This document shows positions 718-16,858 of a stretch of DNA of 26,476 nt, piece by piece (position 1 is the stretch's first letter; every line of letters begins with the position of its first letter). Below the pieces are notes generated by a model. That model saw only the letters and a program-made list of their open reading frames with translations. It was not told where the DNA came from and made no database searches. This stretch comes from a virus. The position numbers were made by a program, and so were the translations under genes. The stretch is taken from positions 1 through 26,476 of IMG/VR virus record IMGVR_UViG_3300042292_000005. One strand, written 5' to 3'.

Positions 718-942
718 TTAGGTGAATACGCGAATGAAGAAACTAGCAGCGAGGCTCATGCCGGCTCCAATAGCCGCTGACCAACCGAGCATGTAGCCGC
801 GTGAGTATTCAAGAGATCGGATGCGCTCGTCGTGTTCCTTCAGAGCAGCCGAGTGTTGAGTGTGCATTGAGAGCAACGAATCCACCTTGCCTTCTAGGCG
901 ACCAATGGCGAGAAACAGTTCTTCGTTGTGGGTGGAGGTCAT
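718..942 (-). CDS. Small coiled-coil plus transmembrane protein, XhlA/holin-accessory-like
   Basis: This 74-aa protein has two parts. Residues 1-48 are charged and helical with heptad-like spacing (GRLEGKVDSLLSMH, then EHDERIRSLEYSR). Residues 50-70 form a single hydrophobic helix (MLGWSAAIGAGMSLAASFF), followed by a short basic tail. The layout, an amphipathic coiled coil with an E-RI-x-LE-type motif followed by a C-terminal membrane helix, is that of XhlA-type haemolysin/holin-accessory proteins and many unnamed small phage membrane proteins. I infer a role in lysis or in membrane tethering. No endolysin or spanin gene is visible beside it within the window. The start is preceded by AAAGAA, a fair ribosome binding site, and the 84-aa gene ends 8 bases upstream. 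The membrane topology is clear; the lysis role is uncertain. Confidence 0.75.
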   Translation of the reverse strand: MTSTHNEELFLAIGRLEGKVDSLLSMHTQHSAALKEHDERIRSLEYSRGYMLGWSAAIGAGMSLAASFFIRVFT

Positions 943-950
943 GTGGTTCT

Positions 951-1205
951 TTAGCAGTCGGTTGCGTTCAAGAACTCAGGGAGCGTCTTCAAATGCAGGT
1001 AGGCCTGTTTAATCGGGTTCTCGCCTGTGATGTCATAGGCGCACACAAACCCGTCATCGCCAAATGCAGGGAATGAAACATCCTTGTACGCACGGACGCG
1101 GAAAGTCATTGATGCGTTGGTAATCAACGAAATGCTTTCAACGCGGTGGTATGCGTTTGTTGCTTCAAAGCCCTGCGGTGATGTTGTTGTCTTTGAGAGT
1201 GCCAT
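951..1205 (-). CDS. Conserved-looking 84-aa phage protein of unknown function
   Basis: I chose the ATG at 1205 (MALSKTTTSPQGFEATNAYH) rather than the upstream ATG at 1289, because 1205 has an AAGGAAC ribosome binding site and begins just after the stop of the spike gene (1219-1221). The longer form would overlap that gene by 71 bases. The protein is soluble and predicted mostly beta (MTFRVRAYKD, DGFVCAYDITG), with a helical C-terminus ending KTLPEFLNATDC. It carries no known catalytic motif. I recall similar short proteins (NAYHRVE near the start, NPI-QAY and LKTLPEF-ATDC at the end) as unnamed genes beside tail genes in other phages; this is memory, not a search. A decayed relative of its last 14 codons lies at 2518-2562, directly before the same spike gene, so the gene family appears to be linked to the spike genes. 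Confidence 0.85.
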   Translation of the reverse strand: MALSKTTTSPQGFEATNAYHRVESISLITNASMTFRVRAYKDVSFPAFGDDGFVCAYDITGENPIKQAYLHLKTLPEFLNATDC

Positions 1206-1218
1206 GTTGTGTTCCTTA

Positions 1219-2508
1219 TTACTTTCCAACCCAGCCAGTATTCCCGGCTCCTGATTCTTTGACATACAAACTAGTACCAGCACCGCCATCGGTTCTCATA
1301 AACAGACTTCCGACAGATGCTGTAATCGCACCCTCGGGCGTTCCTGTTCCTGAATTGATCTTTGGCCCTGTCTTTGATTGCAACGAACCATCGGTATTCA
1401 TAACCCATTGCTGCACCGAGTTAATTAGGAATTGATGAACGCCCGTAACACCAGCAAGATATTGAATAGATGCGCCAAGAACATTGTTGATTTGCAAATT
1501 ATTTGCGGAACTCAAACTCACAGATATTCTGTCTGAGATTAAACCACCAACTTTTTGAAACACATATCCGCTGCCAAAGCCTGTGTCTTGGATAAGTGTC
1601 TCACCTACAAATCTTGTTTGTCCGCACGATCCACCAGTACTATTTACAATAAGTGAGTTTGAGCAATTGCTCATTGCAACTGTTCCACCAGCCATTGTTG
1701 ACTCAAATGTAATGGTGCTGCCGGTTGTTTGGATTACTTGAGAGAAGTTTGAAAAACTTCCACCAACAGAAATGTTGGCGCATCTTGCACCACTTACTGT
1801 AAATCCACCTGCGCCAGCGGATACCGCTACGGATCCCGTAAGTTTTCCACATTGAATCGAAGTCAACAAACTTGCGCCAGTATTTGTTAATAGAATTCCA
1901 CCGTTAAATGTTCCAGTAGTAATTCCGTAAAGCCAATTGTAAATAGATGCGGCTGCTGTACTTCCAATTTCAATGCAGTATCCGGTTGCAGTAACGTCAC
2001 TTGTTTGCCAATTACCGTTTGTTCCAATAATTTTCTGACCACTGCCAGTAGCAAGCAACGCCCGTCCTTCTGCCCATACAGATCCGCAATTCAAATATGA
2101 ACAGTTGTTTCCACTTGTTACAAGGTTGTTCCCAGTAAATGCTGGCGAACTTGACGTTCCACCGTAAAACAATAAATCTTTAAATGTCAACGATTGACCC
2201 GTACATGTAAGCAACGGGCCGTTTGCATTCTTCATTAGGAATGCTTGACCGTATCCATGAAACGATTGCGAGTTTGTTGACTGCGTTAAATTGTTGACAC
2301 GGTAAGTGCCTTCGGGAAACACAATGTTTTTGCCCGTATTGATAGCCGCCTGAATCGCAACCGTATCATCGGTTGTGCCATCACCAACCGCGCCAAAGTC
2401 TTTCACGCTCACCGTGTCGCGGAACTTCGTCAGCGCGGTGCGCTGGACTGCGCCCGTGCCGGCGGCTAGGAACGTGACTTGCTCGGATGTTGGCTTGGTG
2501 TTGGGCAT
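1219..2508 (-). CDS. Tailspike-like protein with pectate-lyase-type beta-helix, no virion anchor
   Basis: This 429-aa protein opens with a short linker, then at residues 28-60 shows the hallmark of the Pectate_lyase_3 family (FRDTVSVKDFGAVGDG, then a D-D-T-AIQAAI segment and FPEGTYRV). The next 250 residues or so are Gly/Ser/Asn/Thr-rich with short hydrophobic strands, as in a right-handed beta-helix. The C-terminal 50 residues (KINSGTGTPEGAITA...SLFMRTDGGAGTSLYVKES...GWVGK) match a tip segment common in phage fibres. Spikes of this type bind or cut cell-surface polysaccharide. Unlike the 855-aa protein it lacks a T7-type N-terminal anchor, so it must attach through a partner, perhaps the 855-aa fibre as a branched spike. 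Its linker and fold start are shared with that fibre. The central part is AT-richer than the ends, suggesting a swapped receptor-binding region. The ribosome binding site is AAGGA. Confidence 0.85.
   Translation of the reverse strand: MPNTKPTSEQVTFLAAGTGAVQRTALTKFRDTVSVKDFGAVGDGTTDDTVAIQAAINTGKNIVFPEGTYRVNNLTQSTNSQSFHGYGQAFLMKNANGPLLTCTGQSLTFKDLLFYGGTSSSPAFTGNNLVTSGNNCSYLNCGSVWAEGRALLATGSGQKIIGTNGNWQTSDVTATGYCIEIGSTAAASIYNWLYGITTGTFNGGILLTNTGASLLTSIQCGKLTGSVAVSAGAGGFTVSGARCANISVGGSFSNFSQVIQTTGSTITFESTMAGGTVAMSNCSNSLIVNSTGGSCGQTRFVGETLIQDTGFGSGYVFQKVGGLISDRISVSLSSANNLQINNVLGASIQYLAGVTGVHQFLINSVQQWVMNTDGSLQSKTGPKINSGTGTPEGAITASVGSLFMRTDGGAGTSLYVKESGAGNTGWVGK
2346..2478 (-). repeat. Spike hinge module, copy in the 429-aa spike gene
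   Basis: This 133-bp stretch aligns without gaps to 4237-4369 in the 855-aa fibre gene (constant offset of 1891 bases). The encoded peptides share VTF...AGxGA...RTA..KFRD.VSVKDFGAVGDG.T.DT.AIQAA. It is both the start of the beta-helix fold and a likely recombination hinge. Confidence 0.8.
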
Positions 2509-2517
2509 GGGGAGTCC

Positions 2518-2562
2518 TTAGCAGTCGGTGGCAGTGGCGAACTCAGGCAAGTTCTTGATGTG
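2518..2562 (-). pseudogene. Remnant of the 84-aa gene family (last 14 codons plus stop)
   Basis: Read on the minus strand in frame, this intergenic stretch encodes HIKNLPEFATATDC followed by TAA. The 84-aa gene ends HLKTLPEFLNATDC then TAA (951-953). Ten of the 14 residues are identical, and the DNA shares exact blocks such as CCTGAGTTC and ACCGACTGCTAA. An in-frame TGA lies immediately before the first codon, and the stop of the fibre gene (2567-2569) begins five bases upstream, so no open gene remains. I interpret this as the 3' end of a former homologue of the 84-aa gene whose body was lost by deletion or when the fibre gene's end was replaced. Its stop codon overlaps the AAGGA ribosome binding site of the 429-aa spike gene, which may be why this piece was kept. 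Confidence 0.8.
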
Positions 2563-2566
2563 TCAA

Positions 2567-5134
2567 TTACAAGGTAAGGTTTGTAAAGTTCAAATAATGA
2601 ATCGCTACCCGAATTACACCACCAGTAAATGCAGAAGTCTTTGACGTAATCAGCAAGTTTGTAGCACTTGCATAATTAATTGGCGTAGTTGCGGTGCTGT
2701 TTGTTACAGCAGTTACCGTAGTGCCTTGGGTGATAGTAAAGATACTTGCGTATCTAGTCAGGTCGGCAGCAACACCAATTTCAAATCCGGTCGCTCCAGT
2801 AATTGCGGTTGTCACAATTGCCGACACACCAACAACAACAGCACCTGCTGGAATAGCAGATGTCAGCGTAACTGTTGCGCCTGACAACGCGGCCGTATCA
2901 ACAATCTTTGTAATGACCGCAGCGCGGCTACCCTTAATTTGCGTGTTGTAGAAAGTTTTATTTGTTAACGGCTGAAATGCTGGGTCGTAAATTGTGCAAT
3001 CTGTAAAACTTGCTGCGCTGTTAAATGGACTATCAGATGTAGAAGTACTACTTCCACGCAATTGCGTTGACATTAAAGACACCAAACTAGTGGCGTTTGT
3101 ATACAAATTAAACGGAGTTGCTGTTCCAAAGTCGCAGTTTTTAATAGAAGACGTACCAATTAGACCCGGAGCAACATAATAAAACCCACGGGTCTTAGCA
3201 CCGGAGCCTGGGTAATACTTAAATCCACTGATGTCTAGGCCTTGAACTGTTCCGTAATTGCTTCCGCTAGAATATGCAAAGACGTATATTTCGCCGTTTG
3301 CACTATTTTCTGCTGTTGTTTGGGAACTACGGTCAAGCGTTCCAGTGACCTTGATGTTCTTAAAGAAGAACGTCTGTTCCCAATTGTTTGGGTAACTTGG
3401 TTGGTAAGGTGTAAAATTATTGTAAAGACCAAATGCGGAAATTTTTGATGCAATAGTATCTGAAGACTTTACATACAAGTCAAAGTTAAGATTCTCAAAC
3501 AAAGTCCCAGCGTCACCGCGAGACATAGAAATAACAGAACAAAAACTATTATCAATGTATATGGTGCTGCCTAAATCATGTGCAACAATATCAAGGTCTG
3601 AACATCCCCTAGACGTTCCTGTTGGATAGCCTTGATTGTTTGTAGTTGCGTCTGTAATAAGAACTTGGCTTGGCGCAAGGTATTGGTTCTTGAAGTACGC
3701 ACGAACGCGTCCACCACGAACGCCAGCAAGATACGCAGAGCGGTGACTGCTTTCAGCATTTAATAGTAAATCTACGTTGGTTGCTAAATAAAATGCAACT
3801 GGATAGCCGCATTCAAACGTGTTCAAAGTAGCACGAATGTTGTTGTTTTCACCCTGCGTGTAATCAGTGTAATCACCAGCCCGAATGCCATATCGAAGAT
3901 ATTTCAAGTTGGCATTAATTGAAATGTTAGAGCAATTCGTTGACAAATTGACAAACGTAGCACCTCGATAACCAACGCCAATTGTTGGATCTGACTTGCT
4001 AACAATTGGTTGACCTTCGTAACTAATGCCTTCAATGCTAATGTCTGTGCATGAAACAAATTGAAAGACAATGCTCAAAGGTTCAGTGGCGTATGTGCGA
4101 CTGTCATACAACTTTGCACCGTCACCAGTAATGCGAATTTTGTTGTTACTGGTGTAAGTGACCATTGAGGTCGATTCAGGCCAAGTAATCAGGTATGTTC
4201 CTCGCGGATAAAAAACGCTTGTACTAGCAGCGTGTGCCGCTTGAATAGCAGCCGTGTCGTTTGTCACCCCATCCCCTACCGCGCCGAAGTCCTTAACGCT
4301 GACAACGTCGCGGAACTTAGCCTGAGCGGTACGCATCGTCGCGCCCGCGCCGGCAGGAACAAAGGTGACAAGCGAGGAATCTGTTGTACCAATCGCCGAT
4401 GTCAGGAAGTTGACAACCTCAATGTTGTCAGTTCCCGCGACCGGGGCTGCGCTAAACGTCAGCGTTGTGCCGGCAATCGTGTAGGTGTCGCGCTGCTGAT
4501 AGATGCCACCAATGAACACCTCGCAGGAGTTGCCAAGCGCACCGGGGTCTGAAGCAAGCGTGAACGCCACCTGCGACCCTGTGCCGCTGAACTGCTGACG
4601 GGTGATTGAGGTAGGCGAACCAGGCGATCCTGCCGTGACCACCGTTGGCTCGCCCGTTGCGTCAAACACAAGGAACGAGTTGGCGCGAGCGGCTGCGGTT
4701 GGCAACTCCATGTCAAGGCTTAGGCCGTCAGAGATCGGGATCTTGATAGACCGTGTCAATTCGTCAGCCATCTGCTGAATCTGAATCGTTGCCCGGTCGA
4801 GCGCGTCCGTGATGACTTCAGGGTAGAAGCCACCCTGGTTGGTCAGGTCGGTCGGTTGCAGGTTCGCAATATCCGAGGTAATGACCATCGTGAACCCGGT
4901 CGCCAGTACGGCAAGGAGCGTCACGTTGCCACCGGGATTGCTGTCTTGGTCGGTGTTCAATGACACCGTGTAGTCGGTGTTCAATATCAGCGTGGACTCA
5001 AGTCCCGTTGACGAGTCAGCGCGAACAACTTGCAAGTTTGAAGCGGCAAATATCTTAAAAGCGTACGGGAATACAGTTGCTGTGCCTGTGCCTATAAACG
5101 GCCCAGCGATTCGTACTGTTGAACTAATCGTCAT
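2567..5134 (-). CDS. Tail fibre/tailspike with T7-type anchor and pectate-lyase-like beta-helix
   Basis: This 855-aa protein is the main receptor-binding candidate. Residues 1-135 resemble the virion-anchoring N-terminus of the T7 gp17 fibre family (VFPYAFKIF near residue 20, then LTNQGGFYPEVITDALDRAT and IQQMADEL). Residues 180-245 form a small beta-domain (FSGTGSQVAFTLA...FIGGIYQQRDTY). Residues 265-310 carry the pectate-lyase-3 start (FRDVVSVKDFGAVGDG), followed by a long Asn/Ser/Thr/Gly-rich beta-helix region. The last 115 residues or so (ALSGATVTLTSAIPAGAVVV...TGATGFEIG) match a C-terminal domain seen on many phage fibres. The AGGAG ribosome binding site is clear. The gene follows the giant gp16-like gene, as gp17 follows gp16 in T7. 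The beta-helix part is markedly AT-richer than the anchor, a sign of module exchange. Enzymatic activity on polysaccharide is possible, but no catalytic residues can be assigned. Confidence 0.9.
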   Translation of the reverse strand: MTISSTVRIAGPFIGTGTATVFPYAFKIFAASNLQVVRADSSTGLESTLILNTDYTVSLNTDQDSNPGGNVTLLAVLATGFTMVITSDIANLQPTDLTNQGGFYPEVITDALDRATIQIQQMADELTRSIKIPISDGLSLDMELPTAAARANSFLVFDATGEPTVVTAGSPGSPTSITRQQFSGTGSQVAFTLASDPGALGNSCEVFIGGIYQQRDTYTIAGTTLTFSAAPVAGTDNIEVVNFLTSAIGTTDSSLVTFVPAGAGATMRTAQAKFRDVVSVKDFGAVGDGVTNDTAAIQAAHAASTSVFYPRGTYLITWPESTSMVTYTSNNKIRITGDGAKLYDSRTYATEPLSIVFQFVSCTDISIEGISYEGQPIVSKSDPTIGVGYRGATFVNLSTNCSNISINANLKYLRYGIRAGDYTDYTQGENNNIRATLNTFECGYPVAFYLATNVDLLLNAESSHRSAYLAGVRGGRVRAYFKNQYLAPSQVLITDATTNNQGYPTGTSRGCSDLDIVAHDLGSTIYIDNSFCSVISMSRGDAGTLFENLNFDLYVKSSDTIASKISAFGLYNNFTPYQPSYPNNWEQTFFFKNIKVTGTLDRSSQTTAENSANGEIYVFAYSSGSNYGTVQGLDISGFKYYPGSGAKTRGFYYVAPGLIGTSSIKNCDFGTATPFNLYTNATSLVSLMSTQLRGSSTSTSDSPFNSAASFTDCTIYDPAFQPLTNKTFYNTQIKGSRAAVITKIVDTAALSGATVTLTSAIPAGAVVVGVSAIVTTAITGATGFEIGVAADLTRYASIFTITQGTTVTAVTNSTATTPINYASATNLLITSKTSAFTGGVIRVAIHYLNFTNLTL
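4237..4369 (-). repeat. Spike hinge module, copy in the 855-aa fibre gene
   Basis: This is the partner of 2346-2478, ungapped over 133 bp. It lies exactly where base composition changes from GC-rich (anchor side, above about 4240) to AT-rich (receptor-binding side), which supports its use as a crossover point. Confidence 0.8.
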
Positions 5135-5195: not shown

Positions 5196-8100
5196 TCACT
5201 TCTTCTTACTCTCTGCGCTTGGCACTCCAGTGATCAGTCCGCGCATGTAGTCGATTGCTCCGGTCGGCTCAATCTTCCCGCGTTCGACTTCCATTTGGTA
5301 ACCGATTGGGCGACCAAGGACAGACACGGGAACTCCGGTTGCATTCGTAATGAGTGTCAACACATCGCGCACGTTCCTGCCCGTGAGTTCCTTGTCATCG
5401 GACGCAAGGTTGACAACTGCCTTGCCAACGCCAACGGTCGATGCCTCAAGCGAACCAATTGATGGGCTGCTTGTGATTCGATCGTCATATGTCCGAGCGG
5501 TGAATCCTGCGGCGAATGCTGTGTACGCGGCAGACCCAAACGGAACCATTGCCGCACCCGCTCGTACCTGGCTACCAAAGAACCAATCGGCGACATCGTC
5601 GAGGTATCCATCGTCATCATCGTCCCACCCAGCACCGAGGGAACGAGCAATAGCGTCTGCCACCAAGGTGGGGGCAAGGAACCCAAGCATGTAGATTGAC
5701 ACCAACTTGCCCTTGTTGCCGCGCCAGCCAAGGTCGCGCAACACCTTGACATACTCGTCAGTATTCAGGTTGGCAAGCATGTTGAAGTAACCCGTGAACT
5801 GCACGAAGGTCTTGTAGAACGGCGAGCCAACCTCAAAGGCTGCAACGTCCTCTGCCGACATGCTTCCCTGCGTTGAACGGACGGCAGCGTCAGCCTGTTG
5901 GATAGCCTCGGCCTGTGCTTCGCTGTCAGAAAGAGTAGTACCAATTTCTGACAGCACCTGGTTGTACTTGCCGTTCCAAGTCACGATGTCAACGAAGTTC
6001 TGAAACGCTGACTGTAGGAAGTATCCGTGATGCTGCGACCACTTCTGAATCTTGTCAAACTTGCTAGGGTTCAACAGCAGGTCGTTCATCTGATCTTGGA
6101 TCTCAAAGATCTGCGAGTGCATGCGCTCGTTCATAAACGGAGACAGGCCGGCAATAGCCTCGGCGGTCTTGCGTGGGCTTGCAAGGTAAGTAAGCAGCGA
6201 GTCTTTCAGCGCACCCTTGGACACCTTGAGCGCAGACGGGAACAACCCGGTGACCTGCTGCAATGCGTTTCGCAGGTTGGCAAACATGATTGACATACCC
6301 GTGCGTGAGCGCAGGGTGCGCCAGAAGTTGTCAATGACCTTGTTCCTACCAGGCTCGTTTGTTGACTGACGGGCGGTTCGGTTTAGCCAAGGCAGCAACA
6401 TAAACTCGACAACGGTCGGGTCAATGCGGCTTAACTTGTCAGCAAACCCACGGTTGTTGACGATGCGTAGCGCGTCCTTGATAGCCGGTTGGATGTTGGC
6501 AAATCGCAACACATCATCAATGTGCTTCGCCATCAACCGTACGTCGAGGCTCAGTGGCTTGTTGTACTCAACGCGACTCTTGGTGAATCCCATGCCTGTA
6601 CTTGGCATAGATGACCGGAAGTCTGCGTCAAGTTCCTCGGCCTTCGCCTGACGCTGTGCGTCACGAACAATTGCCGCGTCTGTCTTTGCAGGAACGTACC
6701 CACCTCGGTATGTGCCGAACGTGTTTGTGAACTGCGTTGCTTCGACTTCCTTGAAGTAGTAGCCGTACAGGTCGCGGTGCGCCTTCTGCGCGATTGGCTT
6801 GATTTCCTCGTTGAGATCCCACACCGATTGCAAGAAGTCAAAGTCCTTCTTTGTCAACACGCCCTCGGCAATCATGCGCTGAACAAACGAGTCCCATCGT
6901 GTTGTGTCAAGAGTTCCGTCACTGTTGAGTGAACCCCATCCACGACCAACTAGCAACTTTTTGTAGTTACTCTCGTTACCAGTGTGCAGCATTGCGCCAA
7001 GCAGTTCAGCCTTGCCAATGCCACCGTTACCAACGCCGAACGTGTAGTCGATTTCCGGTGATGTAATCTTGCCAACAGGCAATTCAAGTGTGCTAACAAG
7101 GTCAACAAACCGCTTGACGTAGTTGTTGCGGTCTACTCGGTACGCGTTGACAGCGTCCTTCACAGGCCGATAGATGTACTTGGTAAACGCACCAACGCCA
7201 CCAGCACCGTCCGTTGCGTCTGCCCAGTTCTCGACTCGGCGCAGCAATGCCTTTGCGCTGTACAGGTGAGCAGCAAACTTCTGCTTGGTTGTCAGTGCGC
7301 TCTTCTCGCCTGGTACGGTTGTTGGTACGCCGATCTCATTCAGTCGTGCGTCGAGTTCTGACAACACACCATCAAGCGCGATCTTCTTGCCGGCAACGGT
7401 GATTTGCTTGTCACGCCGTGACTGCTCCCACAAAGCGTCAACGACATCGCGCAACATGCGGAAGTCGTTCATTGTCATCTGCGTGTAGTCCGGCAAACCA
7501 GTACTTGCTTGATCAATCAGCGGTTTGATCGTTGCATACATCTCAGGGTTGTATGCCTCAAGTTTTGCAATGTAATCGGCAGGGTTCTTGCCAACCTTTC
7601 CAAACCCGTAGTACGACAGGATTGCCCGTGCAGCGTCAACCAAGTCCATGTTGCGCGACTTGGCAATCTTCTCGTCAGAACCAAAGAACTTGCGGAAGTC
7701 CTTGAGTGCCTTGTCAACTTCCTCAAGCGCAGCGGTAGAAACCTTGACCAACTGGTTCTGAACTACTTGCGCTTGCTTGGCGCGAATGACCACCTGTGCC
7801 GGCTCGCGGTTTCCGTACTTTGCCGCGAACGCGTCCTGACGATCCTTGGCAGCGGTAGCAGCCTGGTCGCCCTTCTTGGTGGCTTCGGCAACGGCAGTTG
7901 CCTCGTCAACCCCAGCAGCGATCTGCTCGTTGTAGGAACGGGTGTAGGAGGTCTTACGAGCCTGTTCAGGAGTCTGACGCTGTTTGTAGGCATCGGCAGC
8001 ATCTCGTGCTGCACGAGCCTCTGCGGCGGCGTAATTGCTCGGTCTGATGTTCTCAATCTTCTGTGCGTTGACAATCGTGTTAGCAGCCAACCGCGCAGCG

Positions 8101-11100
8101 TCGGTAATCGCACGGACAGGGCGAGTAGCACTAGCAACAAATCGAGCCTCAACACCAATGAAACGCTCGCGAGCCTCATTGTGCAGTGCCTTTTGTACCT
8201 GCATCTCCATCTCGGCAGGGGTGTTCATGTCCCCGTACTCGGCAAGCATGCGAGCGTCGAGCCTACTGTCAACCTCTTCCTTGACAGGCTTGGCAGCAAG
8301 AAGCGCAAGAACCAACTCGTCACCGCTCTTGAAACCAAACATCTCGGCAACCATGTCGGGGTGCAAGCCATCTTCTGACAGCATTCCAAACTTGCCATAT
8401 CCCAACTTAGACAGGTTCTCGGCAGGGATCATCGACTTGACAATCGCTAGGTTTAACTTGTACTTGTCGCTGAAAACCACCATTTCGCCGTTTGCCACTC
8501 GACCCTTGCCAGTCTTGAGGACTGACATTGCCATGTACACAGGCTCGGCTGCAACCTCCTCAGCAATGTCGTTACGCATCTTGTCGCGGATGTCGTCGTG
8601 CTTGGCCTGCATTTCCTTGAGCAGTCGAGTACGGGCGTTTGACAGCCACTCCATCTGACGGAGACTTGCCTTGGTCAAGTCAGTCACGGACTGGTCGTGC
8701 GCTTCCTGCACCATCGCCTGGTACGCAGCCCACCGTGCATCGTCGTATCCGGACTGCTCTTGAGTCAAGAACAGCGGTGTCATGTTGTTGACAGACTCCG
8801 CGTATTTGATTTGCTTCTCAGTTGCCAACATGCGATCCATCACCCCCCGAATCTCGGGTGTCAGCATCGGCAGGTCTTCGCCAAACTTCTTACGGTAAAT
8901 GGCGTTGAGTTCATCGCGAATATTCTTGTAAATTGCTCGTAACCAAGCAGAGAATCGGTCGAACACACCCTGCATCTCAACGCTCGGCGACTTGCCTTCA
9001 AACAAATAGATTTCGTGGTTGTAAGCAAACGCCTCCCAATACTTGCGTTGCTCCTCAAACGTCATGGCATTCCACGCCGCAAGGTCTTTAATGCCAAGCC
9101 AGTCAAATATGATTTGCAAGTCAGCCGTGATTTGAGGAGGCGCACCAGGCTTGTTGGCGATATTGACATATGTCGCCATATAGAAATGTGCCATCTCATG
9201 CAGGTATGACGTTAGATCAGCAGCAGTGTTTAGCGTAACAATAAAGGTGCTGAGGTCAATCGACGCACGCGGCTTGCCGGATGGCATGGCTTGGAACAAC
9301 TGCTTGTTGATTACATTGATTGCGTCAGACTGTGCCTTGACCGCGTTGTCGTATTCAGTTACCGATTTACCATCGGTTGACTTATACAAACCCATGTACG
9401 CGTCATCTCGCGCCATAAACACAACATCAGGTTCTCCGTTATTAAACGCAGAGAATGTTTGCTTATCCCATCCTTCAGGCTTGAACTCGTCGTTCCATGC
9501 CATTCGTGATGCAACCACAAACCCATGCGGTGCATAGAAGTGTGCCAGCACCGTGTCGAATGCATCAAGTTTCGTTCCACCTGCGGACACTGCCAATTCA
9601 ATAAGCGCACGGCCGGAATTGTTTGCCGCAAACACCGAAACAATATCGCCGTCCGGCTTAACAGCAACGCCGGACTTGGCATCTGCCGACAAGAACAATC
9701 GCATTCCGCGATATTCCTTTGGCGTGTAAACGGCAACCGCTGCACCAAACGGTGACGCTTGCTTGTTCTCAATAATTGCAGCGTGAAATCTTTCCGATGC
9801 CGCTGCGGTATTGCCTAGTTCGTAGAAGGTTGGAGTTGCGTTTCCGGAACGCTTATACAGTTCAGCAAGACCAACACCAGCGACATACTCGCCGACAATT
9901 GGAACTCCTAGTCGATAAAGCCCTTCAGTATCTGCAACTGTTTGTCGCTCATACGAGAAGTGAGTGTCGAAAATTCCTTGCTGTCGGTTGAGTCGGGCGA
10001 ACTTTGTTGCTGACCCGCCGGCATAGAACTTTCGTTCAAGGGTGCTTGATCCATCGGGTAGGGCTGGGACTTCCCATTTGCTTGCAATGGCAACCGCATC
10101 GGCTGCGGATCTTGCACGATTGGCATTCTGCTCTCGAACAATTTCATCAACAATGCGTTTTCCCTCGCCTGTGCCGCCGGCAAGGTCTGCCCACTTGGCT
10201 GCTTGTTCATCAAGTCGCTGTTGATTGACTTCGGGTCTGGTGTACCAAGGGGCATTTGCGCTCTCCGTTACTTTGAATTGTGTCGGAACAACACCGTTCT
10301 TCGGCTGTTTGATGTTAGCAAGAAACTCCCGAAACGCCGAAACCGTAAACGAATAGGAGTTACCGGATGGTGTTTGGTACTGGAACCAAGGCATACCGGC
10401 CGCATTTCGGTTGTACATCGCACCGTATTCGTACGCGCCGTATTCGCCTTCTTTGCTTGCAACATTGGCAATAGCCTGATCGTCGCCCTTGGCATCGGCA
10501 AGGACTGCGGCAAGCGTTCCGTGCGAGGCCTCCTGCTGACTGAATGCAACCCATGTCTCCCAGTGATACCTGCCAACGCTTGCGTCCTGTGGGCGACCAA
10601 GTCGTGCGTAAAGATCATAGATCTTCAATTGCAGTTGTCGCTCTAACGCTTCATATACAAGAATTCCACGAACACCCTCAGTAATGTCATTCATTGACGA
10701 TCCTGAGATCTTCTTGCCCTGCTCGTTCATCGTCCCGTCATACAAATTCACACCAGGGAATCGACCGTCATCCCACAGTTGGCGAATCTGCACACGATCC
10801 AACACCATGACATCATCGAACCCGGCAACAAGCAGTGTGAAAGACATAACTTTGTTGTCAATGCCAACGCCCTCGCCAATCTTTGCAAATTCACGACGAA
10901 TGCTTTGCCCAGTTTGATTAGGATCTGAAAGCATGTCATGCAGGTTTTGCAAATGCGATTTGCCGTTGTCTCCAATCTTGCTCATCTTGAACAAGAAGTC
11001 TTTGCCAAAAGCGTTTAGGTTGTGAGTTGCTCCTGCACCTGGAAGTCCACTTCCCTTTGGCGCAGCGGATCTTGCCCACTTGTCATATGCTGGGAAGTCT

Positions 11101-14100
11101 TCCTCTGAGAATTTGCCCTCAGCGGCCATTCCAATCCACTCGGCAGATTTATCAAATGCATCGATAAACAAAGATTCTTGTCGATATGGGCTGACCCCAC
11201 GCGACAGGAATGACCACAGAATAAGTTTTGCCGTTGTAGTAACGCTCAACTCACCACTGATGTATGCCGCTCGCAATTCGGCGGCATTTTCAAACCCATA
11301 ATTTGCGTCATTTATTTGACCTTCAGTAAGTTTGCTGAGTGTATTGAACGAGCCATCTCCATTGATGCCCTTGATAAATGCGTATGGAGGAATCGGAACC
11401 TCATCCGATCCAAGCGCATACGCCATCATCTTCGTCCATTCCTCAATCGATTCGCCGGCCGTCGGGAACTTCGCAAGAATCCCATCGACATTGACTAATT
11501 GCTTGTCAGCGTTGTTGTTTTTGGTTCCTGTAAGAATCAATTTCTTTGCAGGTATTTCGGCATCGCCAACTACCTTGACGCGGAATGGCTTCCAAAAACC
11601 GAGTTTGGGTTCATCGCCAACGCCAACACCTGGCGAATCTGCGCCTGGCTCTGCCTTTGCTGCCTGTTCAAGAACTTGTGGTGCTACCTGCTGGCGAGAC
11701 AATGAAACCAATGCGCCAATTTCGTCCGTTGATTTTGCTGATCCAAACACATCAATCTTGTTTGAGTCGGTTGTGAAATACAACTTCTCGCCATCGGGCA
11801 TGACAAACACAATGCCATCGCTGCTGTTGGCAACCATCCGATCCATCGCTGCCTTTTTATTTTCGTAGAACTTCTTTGGATCAGTGACAACCTCAACGGT
11901 TGGATTCTCCATCCTGACCTGTGCGCCAAGAACCTCATTGGTTCGCTCAACTTGCGCTCCAGATACCTCGCTCCACAACTCTTTCAACTTGAATTCGTTT
12001 GCTAGTCGTGGGAACAATTGACGGTATTCGCGCACCATTTCTTGCGCGGCGTAGTAAACACTCTTGTCATCAGCGACATCGGACAGGCCTTCGGCAGTAA
12101 ATTCAACTTCGTTTAATTCAGAACCGTGGTAGTCAAAGGAAACCTTTTGCTCTGCTTCTGTCAACTTGCTTTCAATACTTTGAATGCGCTTGTTCAACGC
12201 AGCAGCAAGCGCGACAAGTTGATCGTCCTTTACTTGTTCCTTTGTAAACTTTGTCGGCCGCAACATGGCATAACGATTGGATGCTTGTTCTGAATCGTTA
12301 GTAAACCAAAACCCCTTGAGCGGGTCGGTGGACATTGGAGCAAATCCAAACCGTGATCGCTCGGCTGCGCCAGTGTCAATCTTTGTCGGATCAAACTTTG
12401 TAAACCCACCAGTGCGCGTTCCGTGAAACGCTGAAATTGTTACTGGCTTGCCTTCAACAAATTCATAAGTCTTAGATTTTTCGTCGGTGATTACATCAAC
12501 TTTAACGGCTTGTTCAAGCATTTGCTGCTGAGTCATTTGCTCCGCAGCAGCCTGGACAGCAGACTCAAATGCCTTGTTTGCGGTGTCCATGTCACCGCGA
12601 CCGCCAACCTCTCGGTCATACGCTTGTTCCTCACGGAATTGATCTAAAGCGTCTGCAAGTCCTTGCGGTGCTTCGTCTGAATCAATAAGACCCTCAATTG
12701 TGTCGGCAAGGTCATTGGTGGTTCCGTATTCTTCGCCGTCTAAATACTTGTTCCATGCTTCGGCAAGAACCGGATAAGACGGCTGCGGTGGCATTGCCGC
12801 TTGCTCAAGCGGGGCGGCTGCTGGTGCTGCCTGTCCTTCGCCAACTACCTTTGAGCCATACTTGTTGTGCCAATCAAGCGGAGTCATGTTGAAACGAGCC
12901 GACATGACTGTTGCAACAGCAGATGCCACAGAAGCCATTGACCGCGATTCTGACTCCGTGTACCTGCCAGTAGCAACCAATTGAGCGGTGACGCTGTCGG
13001 CTACGGCCTGTGCGCTTTGGTCAATAGCAGCGTCAGCCTTCATCAACTCCATTGCCGATTGCTTCATCTCCTCGACAATCTGCTCACGATCTTTGACGTA
13101 TTGGTTGTTCTCGGCAATTGACATGTCGTTCGGGTCAAATCGCATGTGTTCTTGCAATGCCTGACCAAACGCAAGGTCAGACAGACGGGCTGCGTATACG
13201 GATGTTGGAAACGCAAAGTCAATACCGCTCATGCCTTTTGCATCTGCAATCGCCTTGGTCACGCCTGGCAAGATGGTTTCAAGTTGCTGGGCAGATACAT
13301 TGTTCTTAGCCATTGCCTCGCGCAACTTCTCAATGTCAATGAATAAAGTGTGATTGGCTGTTCCACGCGCCTTCTCTTCAAACCACTCTTGGTATGAGCG
13401 CGGGTTGCGACCCTTCAACTTCGATTCTGAAGCGTTCTTGTCAATGTCCTTAAAGAACTGGCGTGTTGCCTTTGCTTTACTGGCGCGGCGAGCATCACTG
13501 ATGAAGTTTGCGCCGGGGAGGAAAGCACCCATGATTGCCATTCCCTGTCCAACTTCTATGAATGTGTCTACAAATTGCTTTGCTAGTTCGGCGCGACCTT
13601 TTTCAGACTTCCACTTCTCCTCGTACAGTGGATCGGTTGCCAACATCGCCATCTCTTGGACATAAGTACTAACAGCATCTTGGGCAAGTTCTGTTCCTAC
13701 TTCGGTTGTAACGCCAATTCCATACGACTGCAAGAATCGCTTGGTCACATCAAGCATTCCAGTTTGCTTCAATGTGTCAATGACTTGTCCTGCAACCTCG
13801 CGCTTAATCAACTTCTTTGCTTCGCCAGTCACAAACTTGAGCGGAAGAATTTCGAGTGCAGCCATAATTGCCCCACCAATTGGTGCAGCAACACGAGCCG
13901 TTTCTTCAGGAATGCCATCATCAAGCATGTCAATAAATAGGTTGCCGCCTTCAAGTTGAAATGACTGCACGACTCCGGCAGACATCACTCCCATTCCAGC
14001 ACCGGCAACCATTCCCGGAACCATGCCAATACCGCCTGTTGGCGCACCAAGCACTAGTCCACCCGCTACTGCGCCGTACAACGCCATCTCTGCTTGCTTT

Positions 14101-14801
14101 GGAATCGTTGACTCTATGTTGCCTTCAAGCGCACCGAAACTTTCTAAAAACCCACCACTTGCCCGAAGGTCAGCCATTTCCTGTGACTGTTGCGTTGCTT
14201 TCGCTCGCAGCGATTCCGGAATTGGAACGCCGCTATACGATGCTGCAAGCATGTCTGCGCCCGTGATACCGCGTTCGGTTGTCTTGTACCCGCGCTCTCG
14301 TCCAATCTTAAACTCCTCAATCCATGACAAGTCAGGGTTGATCTGCTCACCAGACTCCATAAGGTTTGGCAGGTCATCGTGCGCTACCGCAGCGAAGTCC
14401 TTGTTTGCCAACATACGGGCAAGCACAGGGTCGCGCTTGAACAGGTCAAGTTGTGCCAATCGGTCTGTCGCCAAACGCTGCTCAAGCAACTGCTTGTTGC
14501 GTGATGCAATGTCAGAACCAACCCCAGTCTCGTATCCAAGTCGCTGCGCTGCTGCTGCCTCTTCGGCGTTGCCGGCAGCGGCCTTAGAGATTGCCAAGTT
14601 CATAGCGTTAGTTTGGTCAGCAACACGCTGACGCGTCTGCTTGGCAATGGTGTCGGCAAAGTCATCGCCCGACGGCACAAAGTCAACCTGCTGCGCCATT
14701 GTGTTTGGCAACGCGGCAGATCCGGAACTGTTCAACGGGTCAATAGGATTCTGTGATGGGGCGTACTTGAAACTTGGATCGGTAATGTCTTTGTCCATCA
14801 T
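5196..14801 (-). CDS. Giant gp16-position virion protein with ADP-ribosyltransferase-like and zincin domains (polyvalent type)
   Basis: This 3201-aa protein sits where T7 encodes the ejected protein gp16 (about 1300 aa). Residues about 237-278, 303-321 and 415-433 are Gly/Ala-rich and hydrophobic and could insert in membranes. Residues about 788-1018 look like the ADP-ribosyltransferase domain of polyvalent proteins (SAFHGT with His793, GFWFTND...ASNRYAM, SSDGIVFV...EKLYFTTDSNKI). Residues about 1135-1500 hold a conserved-looking unknown segment with VMSFTLLV...VMVLDRVQIRQLW. Residues about 1672-1785 look acetyltransferase-like (GMRLFLSAD...GTKLDAFDTVLAHFYAPHGF). HEMAH at 1868-1872, with Glu1923 downstream, fits a zincin metallopeptidase. 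The rest is mostly helical, with a charged Ala-rich stretch at about 2258-2335 and a hydrophobic helix near 3030-3055. It overlaps the gp15-like gene (ATGA) and has an AGGA site. No transglycosylase motif was recognised. I infer ejection into the host with effector functions; the domain calls vary in certainty. Confidence 0.9.
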   Translation of the reverse strand: MMDKDITDPSFKYAPSQNPIDPLNSSGSAALPNTMAQQVDFVPSGDDFADTIAKQTRQRVADQTNAMNLAISKAAAGNAEEAAAAQRLGYETGVGSDIASRNKQLLEQRLATDRLAQLDLFKRDPVLARMLANKDFAAVAHDDLPNLMESGEQINPDLSWIEEFKIGRERGYKTTERGITGADMLAASYSGVPIPESLRAKATQQSQEMADLRASGGFLESFGALEGNIESTIPKQAEMALYGAVAGGLVLGAPTGGIGMVPGMVAGAGMGVMSAGVVQSFQLEGGNLFIDMLDDGIPEETARVAAPIGGAIMAALEILPLKFVTGEAKKLIKREVAGQVIDTLKQTGMLDVTKRFLQSYGIGVTTEVGTELAQDAVSTYVQEMAMLATDPLYEEKWKSEKGRAELAKQFVDTFIEVGQGMAIMGAFLPGANFISDARRASKAKATRQFFKDIDKNASESKLKGRNPRSYQEWFEEKARGTANHTLFIDIEKLREAMAKNNVSAQQLETILPGVTKAIADAKGMSGIDFAFPTSVYAARLSDLAFGQALQEHMRFDPNDMSIAENNQYVKDREQIVEEMKQSAMELMKADAAIDQSAQAVADSVTAQLVATGRYTESESRSMASVASAVATVMSARFNMTPLDWHNKYGSKVVGEGQAAPAAAPLEQAAMPPQPSYPVLAEAWNKYLDGEEYGTTNDLADTIEGLIDSDEAPQGLADALDQFREEQAYDREVGGRGDMDTANKAFESAVQAAAEQMTQQQMLEQAVKVDVITDEKSKTYEFVEGKPVTISAFHGTRTGGFTKFDPTKIDTGAAERSRFGFAPMSTDPLKGFWFTNDSEQASNRYAMLRPTKFTKEQVKDDQLVALAAALNKRIQSIESKLTEAEQKVSFDYHGSELNEVEFTAEGLSDVADDKSVYYAAQEMVREYRQLFPRLANEFKLKELWSEVSGAQVERTNEVLGAQVRMENPTVEVVTDPKKFYENKKAAMDRMVANSSDGIVFVMPDGEKLYFTTDSNKIDVFGSAKSTDEIGALVSLSRQQVAPQVLEQAAKAEPGADSPGVGVGDEPKLGFWKPFRVKVVGDAEIPAKKLILTGTKNNNADKQLVNVDGILAKFPTAGESIEEWTKMMAYALGSDEVPIPPYAFIKGINGDGSFNTLSKLTEGQINDANYGFENAAELRAAYISGELSVTTTAKLILWSFLSRGVSPYRQESLFIDAFDKSAEWIGMAAEGKFSEEDFPAYDKWARSAAPKGSGLPGAGATHNLNAFGKDFLFKMSKIGDNGKSHLQNLHDMLSDPNQTGQSIRREFAKIGEGVGIDNKVMSFTLLVAGFDDVMVLDRVQIRQLWDDGRFPGVNLYDGTMNEQGKKISGSSMNDITEGVRGILVYEALERQLQLKIYDLYARLGRPQDASVGRYHWETWVAFSQQEASHGTLAAVLADAKGDDQAIANVASKEGEYGAYEYGAMYNRNAAGMPWFQYQTPSGNSYSFTVSAFREFLANIKQPKNGVVPTQFKVTESANAPWYTRPEVNQQRLDEQAAKWADLAGGTGEGKRIVDEIVREQNANRARSAADAVAIASKWEVPALPDGSSTLERKFYAGGSATKFARLNRQQGIFDTHFSYERQTVADTEGLYRLGVPIVGEYVAGVGLAELYKRSGNATPTFYELGNTAAASERFHAAIIENKQASPFGAAVAVYTPKEYRGMRLFLSADAKSGVAVKPDGDIVSVFAANNSGRALIELAVSAGGTKLDAFDTVLAHFYAPHGFVVASRMAWNDEFKPEGWDKQTFSAFNNGEPDVVFMARDDAYMGLYKSTDGKSVTEYDNAVKAQSDAINVINKQLFQAMPSGKPRASIDLSTFIVTLNTAADLTSYLHEMAHFYMATYVNIANKPGAPPQITADLQIIFDWLGIKDLAAWNAMTFEEQRKYWEAFAYNHEIYLFEGKSPSVEMQGVFDRFSAWLRAIYKNIRDELNAIYRKKFGEDLPMLTPEIRGVMDRMLATEKQIKYAESVNNMTPLFLTQEQSGYDDARWAAYQAMVQEAHDQSVTDLTKASLRQMEWLSNARTRLLKEMQAKHDDIRDKMRNDIAEEVAAEPVYMAMSVLKTGKGRVANGEMVVFSDKYKLNLAIVKSMIPAENLSKLGYGKFGMLSEDGLHPDMVAEMFGFKSGDELVLALLAAKPVKEEVDSRLDARMLAEYGDMNTPAEMEMQVQKALHNEARERFIGVEARFVASATRPVRAITDAARLAANTIVNAQKIENIRPSNYAAAEARAARDAADAYKQRQTPEQARKTSYTRSYNEQIAAGVDEATAVAEATKKGDQAATAAKDRQDAFAAKYGNREPAQVVIRAKQAQVVQNQLVKVSTAALEEVDKALKDFRKFFGSDEKIAKSRNMDLVDAARAILSYYGFGKVGKNPADYIAKLEAYNPEMYATIKPLIDQASTGLPDYTQMTMNDFRMLRDVVDALWEQSRRDKQITVAGKKIALDGVLSELDARLNEIGVPTTVPGEKSALTTKQKFAAHLYSAKALLRRVENWADATDGAGGVGAFTKYIYRPVKDAVNAYRVDRNNYVKRFVDLVSTLELPVGKITSPEIDYTFGVGNGGIGKAELLGAMLHTGNESNYKKLLVGRGWGSLNSDGTLDTTRWDSFVQRMIAEGVLTKKDFDFLQSVWDLNEEIKPIAQKAHRDLYGYYFKEVEATQFTNTFGTYRGGYVPAKTDAAIVRDAQRQAKAEELDADFRSSMPSTGMGFTKSRVEYNKPLSLDVRLMAKHIDDVLRFANIQPAIKDALRIVNNRGFADKLSRIDPTVVEFMLLPWLNRTARQSTNEPGRNKVIDNFWRTLRSRTGMSIMFANLRNALQQVTGLFPSALKVSKGALKDSLLTYLASPRKTAEAIAGLSPFMNERMHSQIFEIQDQMNDLLLNPSKFDKIQKWSQHHGYFLQSAFQNFVDIVTWNGKYNQVLSEIGTTLSDSEAQAEAIQQADAAVRSTQGSMSAEDVAAFEVGSPFYKTFVQFTGYFNMLANLNTDEYVKVLRDLGWRGNKGKLVSIYMLGFLAPTLVADAIARSLGAGWDDDDDGYLDDVADWFFGSQVRAGAAMVPFGSAAYTAFAAGFTARTYDDRITSSPSIGSLEASTVGVGKAVVNLASDDKELTGRNVRDVLTLITNATGVPVSVLGRPIGYQMEVERGKIEPTGAIDYMRGLITGVPSAESKKK

Positions 14802-16858
14802 TTAGTTCCTAACTTGCCCATTGTTGACCATGCCTTTTCAATCTGACTTGGAGTTGGATTCCTGATGCCGTCAGCCTGAAGACTTTCAATAACTGCTGCT
14901 CGACGCTGGGGTGTAAGCGTCCGCATCTGCCCTTCTAACTCAGAAGGAGTGTAGATGGCGGCTGGCATTGGTTTGCTATCCCAAATCCAACCTGGCTTGT
15001 ACACGGTGTCAGCAATTGTCCTGTCAATGATCATTTGCTTTTGATCGCGATCTAACTTCTTGCCGCTGTCTGATTGCATCTCGTAAATCTTCTTCTCAAC
15101 GGCGACACGCATTTGTAACGACTGTTCCTTTGTCAACTCAATCTTTCCAACTGCAAGCGTCGCGTTGATCATGTCAGCATCGACTGTTGCTTCAATGAGT
15201 TTTCCGCTACCAACTTGGTCAAGCAGTTTGATAAATGTCTCGTTGGTCAACTTGGACTTGTTGGCAAATACATAGTCACGGGTCAGAATGCTTGGCTTCT
15301 CAGCAATCTGAAGCATGATGTCCATGTCGTTTGCTTTGCGCGTGTATCGAAGTGCGTCAGACTGTTGGTCAGGTGTAAGAGCAGCGAACATTGCTGGCGG
15401 GATGGCAGCGTTTGGGTCTGCTACTTGCATGCGTGTGACAGACTCAACAACGCGTTGGTTTTCTTGCGCTGCCATTGCGCGATCTTGTGAGTAACGCTGA
15501 CTGATTCGCTGTTTGACAGCATCCCTGATCTCGCGCCGATCAATTGACCCTGCGATAGCCAGTGCTTCTTGTTCGGTTTGCGGCCGTCGAGCGGCATCCC
15601 TGTTCATGGTGGGGTCAAGGGAGTTGACGTTACGAATGTCAATCGGTTCACCATTACGAACGATTCGATACGACACCGGGGTATCACTTCCAAATGATCC
15701 AATTGCCTCGCCGCGCTTTAGCCGTTGACCCTCAAACAATTGCGACTTGTCAACGCCTTCAAGAAACACTTCCGATCCGTCATCCATTCTGATCACGGTT
15801 TCTTTGCCATCCCTACCAATGACAATGCCGTCTGATGGGCTAACCACAGGAGTGCCAACCTCGGCAGTAATCGACACACCAACAGGCAATGTCTCGCCGT
15901 CCTTGCCAGGTCGAGTGACTAGAGTGATTGCCCCGCCCTTCACAGGCGACTCAAAGTTTGCTGTGCCGGCAGGTGTGTCAAGCGTGCCGCGTTCGTAGAT
16001 GCTGTCGGCAATCTCGCTCGTCATCTGTCGATCACGGTTTGCTGACACCGATGTCAACAGGCTTTGCGCTGCCTTCTCGTCAATGAGTCCGTTCTCTTTT
16101 TGACTAACAACGTAATCAAGCGCGGCCTTGTATTCGTCATTAAGCATAAGCCGATTGACAACGCCACCTGTAATAGCAGTAGTTACGCCGCGTTCCATTT
16201 CAAGCATCTGAAACGAGTTCAATGGAATGCCAACGCTCTTTGCGTATTCCCGCGTTTCATTGATTGCAGTCATTGCGCTTGCGTTAAACGCGCCAGTTGG
16301 CTGACCGTCTTGGTCAACCTGACCGCGTGATTGGTATTCGTTTACAGCGTTACTGATGTAGTTGACTGCGCGAGCCTGTGACTCGTTTGTAGCAAACCGA
16401 AATGCTTCTTTGCTCTTGTGATCAAGCATCTGCCCACGAAACTGAGCCATGTTTCGGGAAGTGGCTTGCATGAACATCGCCTTCTGCGTGTCATTTCCAA
16501 GTCCATCCATCACCGCATTTGCAGACGCTGACAGCGCGTCCTGTGTTGCTTGGTACTTGGTGTCGGCATCTTTGCCGTACGCGTTGAAGTAACCGTTCTG
16601 ACCGCGCAGCATGTCTTGCGCCTGTGTCAACCACTGTGTCTCAGCCTGTTTGGCGTTGCCGTCATTCAGGTTGTCCTGCATGATCGCGCCAATGCGGTAC
16701 TCCACATTGCCGGCTTGCACCAATGCGTTACCAAGTTCAACCGCTTGACCCGCTGCTAGGTTCTGTGCTGGCTGACCAGGCGTTGCCTCAAACGGTGCAA
16801 TACCCGCTTGTGATGAAATGTCGGCTTGTGGCACAAACGATGTTGGGACTGTTGGCAT
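14798..16858 (-). CDS. Internal virion protein, T7 gp15-like, with inactive-looking M23-like domain
   Basis: This 686-aa protein is slightly shorter than T7 gp15 and lies between gp14-like and gp16-like genes, as in T7. It is mostly helical and Gln/Ala-rich (for example residues 30-240 and 440-686), typical of ejection-core proteins that build a DNA conduit across the periplasm. Residues about 305-410 differ: the pattern VGTPVVSPSDGIVIG, then LFEGQRLKRGEAIGSFGSD, then VSYRIVRNGEPIDIRNV follows the beta-barrel of M23/lysostaphin-type peptidases, where the end normally reads HLHFEVR-NG-PVDP. The zinc-binding histidines are replaced (VSYRIV for HLHFEV), so it is probably a binding domain rather than an enzyme. 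The start codon has only a weak ribosome binding site and follows a small hairpin. The C-terminus overlaps the giant gene by 4 bases. Confidence 0.85.
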   Translation of the reverse strand: MPTVPTSFVPQADISSQAGIAPFEATPGQPAQNLAAGQAVELGNALVQAGNVEYRIGAIMQDNLNDGNAKQAETQWLTQAQDMLRGQNGYFNAYGKDADTKYQATQDALSASANAVMDGLGNDTQKAMFMQATSRNMAQFRGQMLDHKSKEAFRFATNESQARAVNYISNAVNEYQSRGQVDQDGQPTGAFNASAMTAINETREYAKSVGIPLNSFQMLEMERGVTTAITGGVVNRLMLNDEYKAALDYVVSQKENGLIDEKAAQSLLTSVSANRDRQMTSEIADSIYERGTLDTPAGTANFESPVKGGAITLVTRPGKDGETLPVGVSITAEVGTPVVSPSDGIVIGRDGKETVIRMDDGSEVFLEGVDKSQLFEGQRLKRGEAIGSFGSDTPVSYRIVRNGEPIDIRNVNSLDPTMNRDAARRPQTEQEALAIAGSIDRREIRDAVKQRISQRYSQDRAMAAQENQRVVESVTRMQVADPNAAIPPAMFAALTPDQQSDALRYTRKANDMDIMLQIAEKPSILTRDYVFANKSKLTNETFIKLLDQVGSGKLIEATVDADMINATLAVGKIELTKEQSLQMRVAVEKKIYEMQSDSGKKLDRDQKQMIIDRTIADTVYKPGWIWDSKPMPAAIYTPSELEGQMRTLTPQRRAAVIESLQADGIRNPTPSQIEKAWSTMGKLGTK

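Follow-up and report, generated by a model that had tools for sequence, protein, structure and literature searches.

What are the 45 bases that lie between the tail fibre gene and the tail spike gene of a podovirus-like phage, and how did they come to lie there? The phage is known from a 26,476-base virus record, analysed here at full length and referred to as the window. Its structural genes are on the minus strand, in the order 3201-aa virion protein, 855-aa fibre, 429-aa spike, 84-aa small gene, 74-aa gene and 189-aa gene (features of the junction are listed in the table). An earlier note on this DNA had taken the 45 bases for the fossil of a lost gene resembling the end of the 84-aa gene. 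Mosaic exchange of receptor-binding genes is well known, and the borders of single events are usually erased; at this locus the remnant can be compared directly with intact counterparts and with several sister scars.

Features of the fibre-spike junction and its surroundings in the window
Feature	Position	Strand	Remark
Tail fibre gene, 855 aa	2567..5134	-	phrog_13893 at N-terminus
Shared anchor in fibre gene (KFRDVVSVKDFGAVGDG...AIQAA), left border of body swaps	4236..4353	-	
Fibre stop TAA plus 4 nt (TTGA), left edge of scar	2563..2569	-	fibre stop 2567-2569
Gene stump: last 14 codons and stop of PHROG 18037 small gene, no start codon	2518..2562	-	
Spike leader GGACTCCCC, Shine-Dalgarno-like GGA	2509..2517	-	
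Tail spike gene, 429 aa, pectate-lyase-like	1219..2508	-	PF12708
Shared anchor in spike gene (KFRDTVSVKDFGAVGDG...AIQAA)	2345..2463	-	
Intact small gene, 84 aa, PHROG 18037, paralogue of stump	951..1205	-	
74-aa gene, hydrophobic C-terminus	718..942	-	probable membrane segment, by eye

Through its fibre N-terminus the phage has named relatives in Limnohabitans phage DC33 and two freshwater podoviruses. DC33 (PQ492659.1, our locus L056) is 39 kb long; its virion gene measures 9.4 kb, and its tail fibre gene is related to that of the window phage. The record is filed under Inoviridae, a taxonomy that looks wrong. Elsewhere in the window, positions 5196-14801 encode the 3201-aa virion protein, which carries a Large polyvalent protein associated domain (PF18834), and positions 14798-16858 encode a protein of 686 aa; with its peptidase M23 domain (PF01551), the latter may be a cell-wall enzyme carried in the virion.

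Read on the minus strand from 2562 to 2518, the 45 bases translate to HIKNLPEFATATDC followed by a stop, and the 84-aa gene ends in HLKTLPEFLNATDC and a stop. With the stops aligned, 10 of the 14 residues are identical, as the earlier note had claimed. The equivalence of position that it had proposed holds as well: the stump starts 4 nt after the fibre stop and ends 9 nt before the spike ATG, and the 84-aa gene stops 8 nt before the ATG of the gene that follows it. The stump has no ATG and is immediately preceded by an in-frame TGA, and we therefore regard it not as a short gene but as a remnant. The small gene, hereafter also called the companion gene, falls into PHROG 18037 (phrog_18037 is matched by 41 of the 42 members aligned); a search with it returned 53 loci from viral contigs and one weak match from genome contigs. 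The stump lacks a full-length frame with a start codon; it matches the C-terminus of this family in frame up to the stop (HMM positions 71-84) and, like the intact genes of L062, L205, L213, L038 and L234, stands right behind the tail fibre gene. The last 29 residues of the family (ENPIKQAYLHLKTLPEF..A.DC) are strongly conserved and the body is variable. A regulatory site in this hyperconserved tail was considered and rejected, the tail being coding in intact homologues. At 45 nt, the stump is too short for a tree.

The stretch is short enough for a chance resemblance to be weighed, and the simulations make this next to negligible. Among 300 first-order Markov copies of the window, read in six frames with a stop required, the best match reached 8 of 15 positions versus 11 observed; with a family profile built from 33 small proteins, the stump scored 17.5 bits versus a maximum of 8.7 in 150 simulated windows. 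Its position, and the contiguous homology with L205 and L213 described below, argue against chance as well. We also consider it most improbable that the stump is a functional element serving spike expression, whether as a translated mini-ORF, a leader or an RNA structure. Such a role would fit the coupling of its stop and the Shine-Dalgarno-like GGA to the spike ATG, which recurs in other junctions with a CTAACGGACTCACC leader. However, the stump lacks a start codon; comparison with Rfam, promoter and terminator prediction and an analysis of fold stability found nothing (fold z-score +0.30); and the closest spike sisters, L001 and L273, do without it although their spike N-terminus is nearly the same as that of the window. 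In these two loci the fibre stop lies 2 nt (L001) and 8 nt (L273) before the spike ATG, and over its 429 aa the window spike is 95% identical to those of L001 and L055. A conserved cis-regulatory RNA element, which the earlier note had named as the finding that would speak against a lost gene, was rejected on the Rfam result, the fold score and the absence from L001 and L273. The spike leader itself is common to L064 (GGACTCCCCATGCC) and resembles CTAACGGACTCACC in L083, L117, L118, L136 and others.

As a check, the earlier note had proposed looking in relatives for a full-length homologue between fibre and spike. For this, 80 relatives of the fibre N-terminus and 80 of the spike N-terminus were fetched. 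Four lineages, L205, L213/L289, L038/L230 and L234, keep the small gene intact, flanked by members of the window's own fibre and spike families. In L205 the fibre gene (1175-3733) is followed by the small gene (3750-3998) and by the spike gene from 4001; in L213 the corresponding positions are 1505-3721, 3729-3992 and 4001, and the same small protein recurs at this place in L289, from a different sample. L038 (= L230) has the order fibre, small gene, spike and second small gene. L234 carries the small gene (3743-3997) just before the spike, its fibre not being read through. By upstream DNA, the closest locus is L062. Its identity to the window is 94%, both upstream and across the fibre N-terminus; it has no spike, and a complete small gene follows 9 nt after its fibre. 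A pattern search for the small-gene end TGCTAA placed 4-30 bases before the spike family gave chance matches only; with shorter gaps and the pattern TGCTGA, the contigs of L205, L234, L213 and, newly, L289 were returned.

Alignment at the DNA level places a break in homology at the scar: on the spike side the window is contiguous with L205 and L213, and on the fibre side it has no homology with them. With L205, the alignment starts one base inside the stump and runs unbroken across the stump and the spike N-terminus (76% over 222 bases); with L213, it runs from stump base 14 into the spike (80% over 173 bases). Because the remnant is contiguous with the spike downstream of it, it is best read as the leftover of a resident gene after replacement of the fibre end. 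The L213 small gene ends in HLKTLPEFATATDC, its last nine residues identical to those of the stump, and over codons 5-15 every difference between the two is synonymous, which implies that most of the divergence arose while the gene was still coding. These synonymous differences suggest that the small gene may have been cut recently relative to its divergence. Searches against named phages with 58 bases and with the 261-base junction gave no meaningful match.

Two routes to such a remnant had been offered by the earlier note: that a unit of spike gene and small gene was once doubled, or that a small gene once sat after the fibre and lost its body when the fibre end was replaced. The second is the better supported. 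A doubled unit does occur, L038 having exactly that layout, but a recent duplication of spike and small gene is not borne out by the window: DNA identity between the stump and the window's own 84-aa gene is 32/45, versus 36/45 for its best matches, in L213 and L207, and we conclude that the stump is the end of an old paralogue rather than a recent copy of its neighbour. On the same figures we rejected the idea that the present 84-aa gene was duplicated recently.

Replacement of a fibre end is in keeping with the structure of the fibre gene, whose N-terminal anchor is conserved and whose distal body is unique. Fibre and spike share the anchor KFRDxVSVKDFGAVGDG...AIQAA; the fibre copy is about 75% identical in DNA to the spike copy and to its counterparts in relatives, and homology of the fibre DNA to the compared relatives ends at or before 4236. 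The distal body had no relative in the viral contigs or among the fetched loci, and among named phages tblastn found distant Bacillus and Salmonella phage spikes only. As these searches turned up no phage sharing this fibre body, the sequence that came in cannot be read. In other phages, movement of bodies between the two positions is evident: in 17 of 77 fibres the distal body resembles a spike distal body in another phage, several of these matches being 97-99% identical over their full length.

Scars comparable to the stump are present at other junctions. L083 has the start of the 74-aa gene behind its fibre, and this matches the DNA behind the homologous L087 spike body for about 25 nt; L076 and L222 show the same pattern. 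Some body transfers, as these alignments show, carry a piece of the next gene. Remnants of the 74-aa gene start (e.g. MTSHHHDELFLA and a stop) precede the spike in L083, L117, L118, L216, L076 and L066, and in those junctions the intact 74-aa gene stands after the spike; the fibre-spike gap of L064 contains only the HHDEL part of that start. Remnants of a second gene start, MIKNLGG, follow a fibre or a small gene in L062, L063 and L067. A second small-gene stump is found in L040 (6187-6258), where MSANIK, the start of the neighbouring spike-type gene, is joined to TLPEFTNAVDC and a stop; it begins at the same codon as the window stump. At 9340-9480 in L136, a spike gene is reduced to a 46-codon N-terminal stump that runs straight into the 74-aa gene.

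Very probably, then, what survives in the 45 bases is the 3' end, no longer functional, of a companion gene that was once intact between fibre and spike and whose body was removed by an exchange of the fibre end. Such an exchange would have replaced the distal part of the fibre gene, with its left crossover in or near the VKDFGAVGDG anchor common to fibre and spike genes and its right crossover within the last codons of the companion gene. About 70 companion-gene codons would thereby have been removed and the tail left fused to the spike leader. We infer both that this was a one-step event and where exactly the crossovers lay. Phage recombinases recombine diverged sequences (PMC3945230). The window is a metagenomic contig in which the fibre-spike junction is known from the assembly alone, so that an assembly join there is conceivable in principle and is a caveat against reading it as an exchange.

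Two variants of this account differ in how the junction was formed. The companion gene may simply have lost about 225 bases by internal deletion, between a point just after the fibre stop and small-gene codon 70, with the fibre body replaced at another time. The mere 4 nt between fibre stop and stump and the complete appearance of the fibre C-terminus (phrog_15388 matched to position 342 of 345) are in line with this, but a fibre body unique to the window phage and body-transfer junctions with similar scars are both explained by one event, and we regard separate events as unlikely. The other variant, possible but with the balance tilted against it, is a chimeric scar in which the MIKNLGGVFG gene supplied the first codons (ATCAAGAACTT, IKNL) from its start, joined at a microhomology to the small-gene tail LPEFATATDC. 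L091 and L102 have exactly ATCAAGAACTT at their MIKNLGG start, and among 57 family tails I occurs at codon 2 in two and N at codon 4 in one; the MIKNLGG remnants mentioned above, and the L040 stump, which looks like such a chimera, point the same way. On the other hand, the first codon of the stump is CAC, the usual H of the family, in place of the ATG needed by the MIKNLGG gene, and family members with HIKT and HLKN exist. The first two to four codons of the stump (IKN) may thus derive from the start of a MIKNLGG... gene that arrived with the new fibre end. Neither variant excludes the reading of the stump as a remnant; both refine the main explanation, and the confidence placed in them overlaps with that placed in fibre-end exchange.

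Taken as the product of fibre-end exchange, the stump illustrates clearly how receptor-binding genes are exchanged but is nothing out of the ordinary, the process being known. The view of the earlier note that it documents how these genes are swapped is upheld by the intact relatives, the shared anchor, the moved bodies and the sister scars. Remnant, intact counterparts and scars together show fibre and spike bodies shuttling between two positions via the shared anchor, carrying or cutting the companion gene. A more doubtful extension is that the companion-gene end (KQAYLHLKTLPEF..A.DC, then the spike leader) is a recurrent crossover site, with bodies and companion genes moving as cassettes; their borders would be the VKDFGAVGDG anchor on the left and the companion tail or the next gene's start on the right. 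If true, the window and L040 stumps would be footprints that record which way each swap went.

In Kuttervirus (Ackermannviridae), tail spikes swap receptor-binding modules at the conserved motif GTTAVSL, as described in passages of PMC8432352. As in those passages, distal modules of the phages studied here follow a conserved motif, and the same module occurs at different spike positions across phages (PMC8432352). The anchor in the window is KFRDxVSVKDFGAVGDG instead of GTTAVSL, and the exchange took place between a fibre and a spike gene and left gene stumps, unlike the spike-spike swaps of Kuttervirus; intergenic scars are not treated in the passages concerned (PMC8432352). Distant Alteromonas phages (A5, V22 and P24) share modules of a tail fibre and its cognate chaperone, so that there, too, a small gene directly behind the fibre moves with the fibre between unrelated phages (PMC10579305). 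The Alteromonas chaperones, which belong to DUF4376, are 195-240 aa long and combine a helical body with a beta-hairpin (PMC10579305), whereas the proteins of the family in the window have 84-87 aa, four strands and a C-terminal helix, belong to PHROG 18037 and have a putative role.

The companion gene family is the least explored part of this system, and sits behind tail spikes in phages of several families. The window's small protein was modelled with a mean pLDDT of 88 as four strands and a C-terminal helix. Compared with solved structures, the model matched no known fold (best VIA-align Z 4.3, best Foldseek E 0.6), which does not by itself make the predicted fold new, and beyond solved folds its matches were uncharacterised viral proteins only. 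Judged by its position, the protein is probably a spike assembly helper. In named phages, genes like those of PHROG 18037 have the same placement as the stump and are intact there; the gene immediately before them is a tail spike or tail fibre gene or some other large gene. Carriers are Burkholderia phage HN02, DSL-LC05, Escherichia phages PDP46 and 24-32N, Vibrio phage 217E38-1, Taipeivirus KWBSE43-6 and Klebsiella phage Bullseye; in HN02 and 217E38-1, the large gene before the small gene has no annotation beyond hypothetical. For 24-32N, KWBSE43-6 and Bullseye the similarity is weak (E 0.007-0.06), and these three matches depend in part on the common placement. In KWBSE43-6 (L284, 975-6778), three tail spike genes stand one after another, and behind each comes a small gene of about 78-99 aa. 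Of these small genes, the middle one is the weak match to that of the window; this triple layout suggests a general spike-companion system.
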